64,000 bases of DNA from Rikenellaceae bacterium (lineage in GTDB: Bacteria > Bacteroidota > Bacteroidia > Bacteroidales > Rikenellaceae), in the NCBI GenBank assembly GCA_015059715.1, contig SUZV01000005.1, positions 53,980-117,979 of the forward strand, read 5' to 3'. How positions within the stretch are numbered: the first letter of the stretch is position 1; the number at the start of each line of letters is the position of its first letter. The notes under the pieces were generated by a model. That model made no database searches. It was given only the letters and a program-made list of their open reading frames with translations, and was not told the origin of the DNA. The position numbers and the translations under genes were made by a program. Shown here piece by piece: positions 61,223 through 63,634 of the stretch.

Positions 61223-61295
61223 CGCGGGGTAGAGCAGTTGGCAGCTCGTCGGGCTCATAACCCGGAGGTCGGAGGTTCGAGTCCTCCCCCCGCTA
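61223..61295 (+). tRNA. initiator tRNA-fMet (CAT anticodon)
   Basis: 73-base cloverleaf: acceptor CGCGGGG / CCCCGCT, D stem GAGC/GCTC, anticodon arm CGGG-CTCATAA-CCCG, T arm GGAGG-TTCGAGT-CCTCC. Position 1 is C and 72 is T, which do not pair, and the anticodon stem has three G-C pairs; both mark an initiator rather than an elongator. CCA is not encoded. The anticodon is at 61256-61258. Confidence 0.96.
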
Positions 61296-61578: not shown

Positions 61579-61717
61579 GTCCTCAACTATATTTACAATC
61601 CCTCCAAACCTCCCTTTGATAAGGGCTGCTTGTGGCAAGGCACTGCCTTGCATTGCTGCGCAATCGTATATACTCGACGTACTGAATTACACGCTCGAAA
61701 TCCTCAATAAACGAGTT
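61579..61717. repeat. direct repeat A, copy 1
   Basis: 139 bases from GTCCTCAACTATATTTAC to GAGTT, repeated with scattered changes at 63496-63634, same length and orientation. Contains CAAGGCACTGCCTTG. Confidence 0.85.
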
Positions 61718-62076: not shown

Positions 62077-62949
62077 TTAAAAAGCAGCGACTGCTCGTGC
62101 ATCATAGTTGGCATCCTTACTGTCCCAGCCAACTCCACCAGTCCCTATATCATAACGACCTGCTGGATCAGATTCACCAAAATCGAACGAGGTCCAATGG
62201 CTAATGTAAAGTATTTTTTGACCATCTGCAAAAAATATTGCCTCGTTAACATCGTCAATTACCTCGTGCAATAATTTACACTCTTCTGCATTAGGCAAGC
62301 GCCATCCTTGACCATAAGAGTTTCCCCATTCCATTGCTTTATACCATGTCCCGTAAAAACCATCAAGACTAATAACTCTACCATGTTTTCCATCTGAAGA
62401 AACAACAAACACTACGCCTTTTTTACCATTGACACAGATAACATCACCCACCTTATAAGTTTTAGAAGTCGTATAAGAGGTTGATTGCGAAGTTGGGCTT
62501 ATTGCTATTTGATTAGCAAGACGAGAGGCTAATCCACTCATCATTGTTCGATATGAACTACTGGGGCTCCAAGTTGCTCCGTCTTTTGCTGAAATAGTTC
62601 CTGACTCAACATTGACAACTCGTACATCAACATTATATTGACCCATAACAACATTGACGTCACCAATAACAACATTTGATACATTCAATATTTCACCAAC
62701 ACGCACCATCTGCAATTGTGTCATCTTACCTCGTTGGAAATTCTGTTCATCTATCACACGATCAATACTTGTGCGCTCAACTAAGGTGTATCCTTTAGGA
62801 GAAAAATAGGTATTAAAAATTGCTGAGATACCGTCTACATCTGCCTGCGATACACCTGTGCCTGCATTAAAATCAAGCACCGCTATACGTTGTGCAGATA
62901 CTGATGTTCCCATCATTAAAACGATAAGAAATGATATTATTTTTTTCAT
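62077..62949 (-). CDS. exported CsgG-like protein with C-terminal FISUMP/DUF1566-like domain
   Basis: 290-residue exported protein (signal peptide MKKIISFLIVLMMGTSVSA, cut before QRIAVLD; not a lipoprotein). Residues ~22-150 match the CsgG/LpoB fold: RIAVLDFNAGTGVS, YTLVERTSIDRVIDEQNFQ and VSNVVIGDVNVV. After a Ser/Thr linker, residues ~180-290 resemble DUF1566 or FISUMP (GQGWRLPNAEECKLL, ending ARAVAAF). The fusion suggests a surface assembly or sensing role, but no partner is nearby. ATGs at 62967 and 62949 are both possible; the second starts at the signal peptide. The gene lies within the repeat-rich region, downstream of the candidate RNA. Confidence 0.78.
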   Translation of the reverse strand: MKKIISFLIVLMMGTSVSAQRIAVLDFNAGTGVSQADVDGISAIFNTYFSPKGYTLVERTSIDRVIDEQNFQRGKMTQLQMVRVGEILNVSNVVIGDVNVVMGQYNVDVRVVNVESGTISAKDGATWSPSSSYRTMMSGLASRLANQIAISPTSQSTSYTTSKTYKVGDVICVNGKKGVVFVVSSDGKHGRVISLDGFYGTWYKAMEWGNSYGQGWRLPNAEECKLLHEVIDDVNEAIFFADGQKILYISHWTSFDFGESDPAGRYDIGTGGVGWDSKDANYDARAVAAF

Positions 62950-63016
62950 GTTTTCATGTTTTTTCATTTTGTAACAATCATATAAATCAGTACCAAATAA
63001 CTTGTATAATACGCAC

Positions 63017-63250
63017 AAAAAAAGCGCGGTACTTTTAGTGTATCCGCATTTCGAGGTGTTTGGCGTAACCTACCGACAGAATAACCAAAAGCCCGCGCCG
63101 TTAAGCACGAGCATTTTTGCAGTATTCTTGTCGGTATTCATTAGTCGCCAAACTTTCGAAATGACAGAATAAAGCTAAAACGCTTTTTCAATATGTCTAA
63201 AATGTGCGTATTAAATCATACGCAATGTTTCATAGGCAAAATGTTTAATG
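63017..63250 (-). ncRNA. candidate structured non-coding RNA, about 235 nt, rod-like (possibly 6S-like)
   Basis: Minus-strand transcript expected to start near 63250, seven bases past the box TAACTTTG. Its core folds as one long rod: ATTTCG/CGAAAT, GTTTGGCG/CGCCAAAC, TACCGACA/TGTCGGTA, GAATA/TATTC and an apical 8-base stem GCTCGTGC/GCGCGGGC (two G-U pairs) with loop TTAACG, all nested in order (63048-63162). A 5' hairpin GCGTAT-GATTTA-AATACGC-like lies at 63206-63223. The 3' end is an intrinsic terminator: GCGG-A-TAC / GTACCGC followed by GC and seven T (63017-63047). I know no Rfam family with certainty; a 6S-like RNA is the leading idea, since long rods with internal loops are typical. Confidence 0.68.
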
Positions 63251-63256
63251 TTTCTA

Positions 63257-63286
63257 CAAAGTTAAGTATTTTTTTGAAAAGTTCAA
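63257..63286 (-). promoter_or_regulatory. promoter of the candidate RNA
   Basis: Minus strand TTG (63286-63284), 19 bases, TAACTTTG (63264-63257). Confidence 0.65.
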
Positions 63287-63495
63287 CTAATTGGTGTTAA
63301 TTTAGACTACATAGAAGACTACACGCAAAGAGAAAAATTGAAGTTCAAGAGGTTTTTCATAGAAAAGCCGTTTCATAATCTAATACCCAATACATTGTAA
63401 ATAAACAAATTCGGCGGTGAAATTTAATTCACCGCCGAAAAGGATAGCCCAAATCGGATTTCCTCTTTTTTTATGGTCGCAGGGGGAGGACTGGT

Positions 63496-63634
63496 GTCCT
63501 CAACTATATTTACAATCCCTCCAAACCTCCCTTTGATAAGGGAGGCTTGTGGCAAGGCACTGCCTTGCATTGCTGCGCAATCGTATATACTCGGCGCACT
63601 GAATTACAGGCTTGTAATCTTCAATAAATGAGTT
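63496..63634. repeat. direct repeat A, copy 2
   Basis: 139-base partner of 61579-61717. It runs directly into direct repeat B copy 2. Confidence 0.85.

Follow-up and report, generated by a model that had tools for sequence, protein, structure and literature searches.

The question raised by this locus is whether an intergenic stretch on the minus strand of a Rikenellaceae contig encodes an RNA of its own or belongs to the messenger of the gene that follows it. A preliminary description of the window (the whole stretch of 64,000 nucleotides of contig SUZV01000005.1 that was analysed), made from its letters, had read a promoter, a long rod and an intrinsic terminator as an independent RNA gene recalling 6S RNA, and had set aside the alternative of a structured leader.

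The promoter-like boxes were present as described: TTG (63286-63284) is separated by 19 bases from TAACTTTG (63264-63257). These boxes (63257..63286, minus strand) are of the Bacteroidota promoter type. TAnnTTTG is common in the family defined below, where it occurs 20-60 nt upstream in 85 of the 125 elements with 90 nt of upstream sequence, about 0.03 being expected per 40-nt stretch. Minus strand 63260-63008 folded into a long rod of -83.1 kcal/mol, compared with -54.5 ± 4.5 in shuffled sequences (z -6.4; none of 200 shuffles as low), which bore out the fold that had been proposed; the nested inverted blocks named with it were likewise found (63048-63162). The longer minus-strand stretch 63250-62940, which reaches the start of the gene, gave a fold z of -8.3.

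Read along the minus strand, the element begins with a minimal upstream open reading frame (uORF), ATG AAA CAT TGC GTA TGA (MKHCV*; 63216..63233), preceded by GCCT. A hairpin termed P0 (63206..63223), formed by GCGTAT (63223-63218) and ATACGC (63211-63206), has a strand in common with the closing stem P1, whose 5' strand is TACGCACA (63203..63210) and in which 7 of 8 pairs are changed on both sides among relatives. Then follows the 5' strand of P2, AAAAAGCG (63181..63188), whose partner, assigned from the family alignment, is CGC plus the U-run. The rod itself (63049..63161), delimited by fold and covariation, comprises P3 (TTTCGAAAGTTTGGCG/CGCCAAACACCTCGAAA), P4 (TACCGACA, 63136-63129, with TGTCGGTA, 63078-63071) and a terminal hairpin (GCTCGTGC, 63112-63105, with GCGCGGGC, 63098-63091). 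Beyond it lie T2 (GTACC, 63028..63032), the 3' strand of P2, which is CGC with seven T and had been described as the terminator tail (63017..63026), the 3' strand of P1, TGTGCGTA (63010..63017), and T3 (GGTAC, 62990..62994), the partner of T2 across the U-run. The gene behind (62077..62967, minus strand; start ATG 62967 or 62949) encodes an exported-looking CsgG-like protein with a signal-like start and a Lcl_C-like C-terminus (CsgG 23.2 bits, above the cut-off of 20.8; Lcl_C 25.0, below the cut-off of 34.9), and its ATG stands 56 nt (62967) or 74 nt (62949) past the start of the U-run.

By comparison of genomes, the element is a member, about 230 bases long, of a large RNA family without a match in Rfam. 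DNA searches gave matches in 18 of 61 genomes, the window's included, and an alignment of 13 full-length members (A4) was the source of a covariance model, R1. At E 0.01, R1 matched 154 of the 180 genomes of the genus, and 66 of 70 among the good-quality ones. Within the order, matches at 1e-5 were obtained in 102 of 393 genomes, spanning 65 of 207 genera, and a phylum sample yielded matches in 13 of 296 genomes, 11 of them outside the order. Because few candidates were scored per genome, copy numbers from these searches are lower bounds, and the R1 E values are approximate; when 150 candidates were scored in each of eight chosen genomes, 2 to 11 matches were found per genome at E 0.01. In the window's own genome there were four R1 matches: the window copy, which is strong, a match antisense to that copy, the locus L232 and one more; the antisense match and the last one are weaker than L232. 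L232 (G000 contig C1, 1501-1742) is a divergent, weaker member in which a long T2:T3 pairing, CAGUACC:GGUACUG, was seen by eye; the gene behind it is without an exported look. An exact core pattern was found in at least 119 stretches of named genomes, and the matches listed came mostly from ruminant and other gut MAGs of several Bacteroidales families. This pattern had no match in viral contigs, nor did the window copy have a blastn match among plasmid or phage records, and carriage by phage, plasmid or virus was rejected on these grounds.

RNAalifold applied to A4 (plain MAFFT, 13 members) gave 58 pairs, 16 of them with compensatory change. An R1 search of 100 chosen loci produced 101 matches, aligned as A6 (100 distinct rows, one antisense). 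This alignment was fitted to the R1 structure and hence leans toward it; 94.3% of its cells pair, and 55 of the 58 pairs are changed on both sides. Doubly changed cells numbered 706, against 160 ± 16 in shuffles (0 of 500), and sliding the partners by 1-3 columns brought the paired cells down to 37-55%. In helices 5, 6 and 11 all pairs carried changes on both sides. Later counts on A6 drop the antisense match, the remaining 100 including one identical pair. Whole stems were replaced in divergent members, P3 being GUUUGGCG/CGCCAAAC in gut Bacteroidales and ACUGGUA/UACCAGU or CUUCGAC/GUCGAAG elsewhere. Compensatory change among relatives, proposed in the preliminary description as a check on the stems, was thus abundant in the 100 aligned matches. 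These comparisons support a real structured RNA at the locus, under selection and with promoter-like boxes of its own.

The family starts with GCCUAUG at its 5' end; such a start was present in 128 of 135 elements, and the frame was exactly 3 or 5 codons long in 114 of them. Among the 100 members of the A6 set, 88 carried the AUG, and a stop came within 5 codons in 86 of these 88 (AUG-stop in 7, 2 codons in 11, 3 codons in 33, 4 codons in 2 and 5 codons in 33). After reduction to an 85% non-redundant set, 73 of 75 frames stopped within 5 codons, compared with 35.6 in column shuffles (maximum 46 in 1000), whereas the two other frames were without clear excess (10 vs 12.4, and 31 vs 24.1 with a maximum of 34); among control upstream ATGs, 71 of 328 had a stop within 5 codons. 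This frame-specific excess over column shuffles indicates that the short upstream reading frame is selected. Its stop codon and stop position vary, and the 75 non-redundant members encode 32 different peptides, ranging from M* to MKKAKTMT*, with MKH at the beginning in 41 of the 75. The AUG lies 22-23 nt ahead of P1 in 55 of 75 members, and the stop codon 4-6 nt ahead of it in 28 of 29 five-codon forms and 9-13 nt in 26 of 26 three-codon forms. For P0, a 5-nt match was found in 52 of 82 members (shuffled mean 35.6, maximum 46), and a 6-nt match in 10, without clear excess (mean 6.9, maximum 11).

At positions -12 to -14, A was found in 75-89% of cases before the uORF AUG and in 62-76% before the main start codons. 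According to the portion available of PMC9976891, A-3, A-6, A-12 and A-13 are initiation determinants in Bacteroidia; of these, A-3 and A-6 were missing before the uORF AUG (C in 100% at -3, U in 77% at -6). Members outside the order lack the minimal frame at the 5' end, and GCCTATG-like short frames were seen by eye further downstream in them. It was also considered, by eye, whether CCUAU at the uORF start pairs with a GUAGG tail before the gene; the variants GCCAAUG and GCCGAUG break this pairing, and it was dropped.

For 125 elements, 300 nt of downstream sequence were available, and in 121 of them an ORF of at least 40 amino acids started within 220 nt on the same strand. The distance from the start of the U-run to the ATG was 42-119 nt in 112 of these 121 members, and 90-105 nt in 63. 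Together with the pairing past the U-run and the several copies per genome before different genes, this position makes the structured leader of the CsgG-like gene that had been set aside the better reading. A signal-like, exported-looking start was predicted for 108 of the 121 downstream genes and 200 of 669 control frames, by a home-made simple hydrophobicity rule and with controls (any ATG frames of at least 150 amino acids in the same loci) that are longer than many of the tested genes and partly spurious. The 113 complete downstream proteins fell into 68 clusters, 57 of them signal-like, and at E 0.01 a total of 31 Pfam families was found among 58 of the 68 representatives. The 25 families among the matches listed, including DUF6567, PEGA, CsgG, Lipocalin_4, a trypsin-like family and a type IX sorting tail, had one member each. 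An exported-like gene was also present at 22 of 27 divergent Bacteroidales loci from other families of the order and, outside the order, at 7 of the 10 loci having an ORF (13 loci in all). Small genes without a signal stand behind the element at L188 and L192.

The genes beside several divergent members were labelled by eye. L184 precedes a sigma-factor-like gene without a signal. Four members outside the order (L183, L185, L187 and L189) lie about 220 nt before an exported SusC-type-receptor-like gene, and upstream of the first three an HTH-like gene seemingly points away.

A specific tie of the leader to the CsgG-like gene was rejected. Relatives of this gene at E 1e-20 occurred in 9 of the 180 genomes of the genus, and the leader is not tied to it because an R1 leader stood on the gene's side in four of 10 CsgG-like loci, the window's included and one of them weak (32 bits). 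The strongest statement that the data bear is that the element is predicted to act in cis, as the leader RNA of genes that mostly encode exported proteins.

How such a leader would act can be read in more than one way. A tentative possibility, which we rate well below an even chance, is a riboswitch-like leader, the rod with its GGU-stem-ACC flanks acting as sensor of a metabolite, ion or protein and the minimal frame as an accessory. Invariant internal segments beside covarying stems in both A4 and A6 would fit a sensor, and several copies per genome have the look of a regulon. However, the diversity of Pfam families given above means that the downstream genes have export in common and no visible pathway, and a sensor leaves the minimal frame and its spacing unexplained.

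The U-run bears on a second way of acting. The terminator hairpin claimed in the preliminary description, GCGG-A-TAC/GTACCGC, can indeed form in the window but is without conservation in the family, and a terminator scan of the window did not list it. Its arms showed no covariation (3 of 95 exact, shuffled mean 1.8; 21 vs 15.1 with G-U allowed), and the stability of the 32 nt preceding the U-run did not, on average, exceed that of shuffled sequences (mean z -0.22, n=84), a local hairpin at -6 kcal/mol or lower being found in 23 of 84 members. In L181 and L182, outside the order, the U-run is absent (CGCTTTCTG), with P2 and GUNCC:GGNAC kept. An intrinsic terminator was rejected as a family feature on account of these three results.

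The 3' arm of that hairpin, GUNCC (T2), covaries with GGNAC (T3) beyond the U-run. The two were exact partners in 64 of 95 members (shuffled mean 16.7, maximum 26 in 1000) and in 51 of 81 of the non-redundant set (12.5, maximum 23). In a first count, 102 of 130 elements were scored, the other 28 having been left out as misfits to the T2 pattern; T3 was an exact partner in 71, against 19-29 in ten shuffles, and a partner with G-U allowed in 89, against 46-58; 13 of the 102 had none. T3 started 14-46 nt past the U-run in 88 of the 89. Since P1 (UACGCACA:UGUGCGUA) and P2 (AAAAAGCG:CGCUUUUU) close the rod between the two, T2:T3 is a predicted pseudoknot. The pairing seemed, by eye, to have shifted to GAGUU:AACUC in a further group from outside the order. 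A 3' hairpin, P6, was present in 40 of 86 members, and the conserved RNA extends beyond the U-run.

These results make a transcription attenuator improbable. In such a device, the hairpin GCGGAUAC/GUACCGC with U7 would terminate transcription, and A5GCG:CGCU5 or T2:T3 would prevent it. In the window the hairpin can form and the seven T are present, T2 is common to both pairings, and the minority of members with a stable local hairpin would be in keeping with it. Against this stand the lack of covariation between the local arms, the ordinary average stability of the region before the U-run, the loss of the U-run in L181 and L182, and the fact that T3 emerges only after the U-run.

The reading that we favour, and hold with moderate confidence, is that the element is a cis-acting 5' leader of the mRNA of an exported-protein gene, with predicted control of translation through a ribosome on the minimal frame. 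By comparison of members it is based on the rod, P1 and P2, T2:T3, the frame of 1-5 codons with its spacing, the position before genes and the export bias. Transcription would proceed from the TTG-19-TAnnTTTG promoter; a ribosome would load at the conserved AUG and terminate just before P1. While terminating it would hold P0 open and thereby determine whether P1, P2 and the T2:T3 pseudoknot form, and the state of the fold would in turn govern how readily ribosomes reach the gene's AUG beyond the U-run. The signal sensed may be the rate of initiation, termination, or a factor or ligand that the rod binds. From this geometry we infer that a ribosome on the minimal frame may set the state of P0/P1 and of the pseudoknot.

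Known leaders resemble this arrangement in part. The tetQ and erm leaders are leader-peptide attenuators, in which a short ORF precedes a structured leader. The likeness to bacterial attenuators and uORFs of this kind lies in a short ORF ahead of a structured leader and a gene, but the ORF here has 1-5 codons and 32 different peptides in 75 non-redundant members (41 with MKH at the beginning), one leader type stands before dozens of unrelated genes, and a 230-nt rod carries a pseudoknot. An AUG-stop minimal uORF of Arabidopsis, said to have been described by Tanaka in 2016, is reportedly boron-dependent; it resembles the element in its minimal ORF, AUG-stop being the form of 7 of 88 members here, and differs in being a plant system with boron dependence, the element having no known ligand. 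In Escherichia coli, a regulatory uORF belongs to topAI-yjhQ, as given in the available portion of PMC12121999. In the available text of PMC2241666, the shunt leaders of plant pararetroviruses (CaMV, RTBV) have a short ORF whose stop lies six nt before a stem, and about 480 nt are bypassed. The element is like them in geometry, the stop of its short ORF being placed a few nt ahead of the base of a long closed stem; the shunt so described is eukaryotic, scanning-dependent and bypasses about 480 nt, whereas the rod of the element measures about 200 nt.

By analogy with these viral leaders, a bacterial ribosome shunt can be envisaged, and we think it doubtful. Ribosomes would start at the minimal frame without Shine-Dalgarno pairing and end its translation at the base of the closed rod; the T2:T3 pseudoknot would bring the landing region near, and ribosomes would cross the rod to the start codon of an exchangeable gene.

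As for the RNA being a gene of its own, 6S RNA is rod-shaped, about 200 nt long and transcribed from a promoter of its own, and the element is like 6S and 6S-Flavo (RF00013, RF01685) in its long rod and promoter-like boxes. The covariance search that had been suggested to check this identity went against it: with all 4227 Rfam families, T-box included, the element stayed below every gathering score in the window, where a tRNA (61223-61295) was the sole match above cut-off. A search of 62900-63400 up to E 10 gave three matches, none to a 6S model, the best E over the element being 1.3, and up to E 0.1 no match was found in 20 divergent loci. RF00013 was not found in the window's genome; this model matched 5 of 14 control genomes. 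RF01685 matched no control genome, so its genome search carries no weight. With no match in the model searches that worked, 6S and the other Rfam families were rejected. The element differs from 6S RNA in this lack of a match, in being multicopy, in standing before exported-protein genes and in pairing past the U-run.

An independent small RNA, 6S-like or base-pairing, is therefore very unlikely: the promoter-like boxes, the U-run and the rod shape would suit it, but the element lies before start codons, its covarying pairing continues past the U-run, several copies per genome stand ahead of different genes, and 6S is not matched. The independent gene proposed in the preliminary description was not supported, for these reasons.

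In the open literature, supplements and most subscription papers lying outside this scope, the element was not found described, nor was a minimal ORF at a near-fixed distance from a rod with a pseudoknot; the element may be listed somewhere under a number. The available portions of PMC8632094 and PMC5972666 contained no description of it. Candidate structured RNAs have been found by computation in human microbiomes, some near genes (PMC8040213, in the portion available), and 64 structured 5' transcript regions are given for Flavobacterium psychrophilum in the portion available of PMC9723704. These are like the element in being Bacteroidota RNAs from computation or transcript mapping, some near or before genes. 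In those portions none is presented as the leader of genes for exported proteins; the comparison is by description, the sequences being in supplements, and overlap is possible.

Comparison of loci further suggested that the leader is kept when the gene is exchanged. Among 115 elements, 32 pairs had promoter flanks at least 80% identical (these pairs have elements in common and are thus not independent), and in 25 of the 32 the downstream proteins were unrelated. The window's copy and L057 are identical over 60 nt of promoter flank and 97% identical over 230 nt of leader, with a different gene. In L051 and L055, homology extends through 2.7 kb upstream and on through the leader, stops 18 and 39 nt past the picked ATGs, and is back 1.85-2.0 kb after them. 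Homology stops within 20 nt of the start codon in L020/L039, L107/L133 and L078/L082, and near the 3' end of the leader in other pairs, the window's included. Homologous recombination between leader copies would be the likely route of exchange. In L051 and L055, which are Paludibacteraceae MAG loci, the exchange site lies, by eye, between phosphoglucomutase-like and dnaN (DNA clamp)-like genes.

In the window, 139-bp direct repeats (61579..61717 and, at 94%, 63496..63634, both plus strand) flank the leader and the CsgG-like gene on both sides. Shorter pieces of this repeat match 10 other sites of the genome, and five of these sites form a cluster on contig C8.

A mobile DNA repeat of the MITE or attC kind, whose inverted structure would act in DNA and not RNA, was rejected as the main reading and is retained as the least credible rival, since the resemblance of TACGCACA/TGTGCGTA to short terminal inverted repeats, a promoter and leader common to loci with different genes, and the flanking direct repeats are opposed by the strand-specific position before start codons, the G-U pairs, the T2:T3 covariation, the selected minimal frame and the searches of plasmid, phage and viral sequences reported above.

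Bacteroidota are a main phylum of animal guts and make little use of Shine-Dalgarno initiation. The RNA family described here is missing from Rfam and marks dispersed exported-protein genes, mostly of unknown function, in this phylum. If the leader acts in cis, it would offer one handle on the control of secreted proteins in Bacteroidota. A leader kept before different genes suggests that repertoires of secreted proteins are exchanged behind a common regulatory head and, were the shunt true, the leader would be a standard translation socket for swapped secreted-protein genes.
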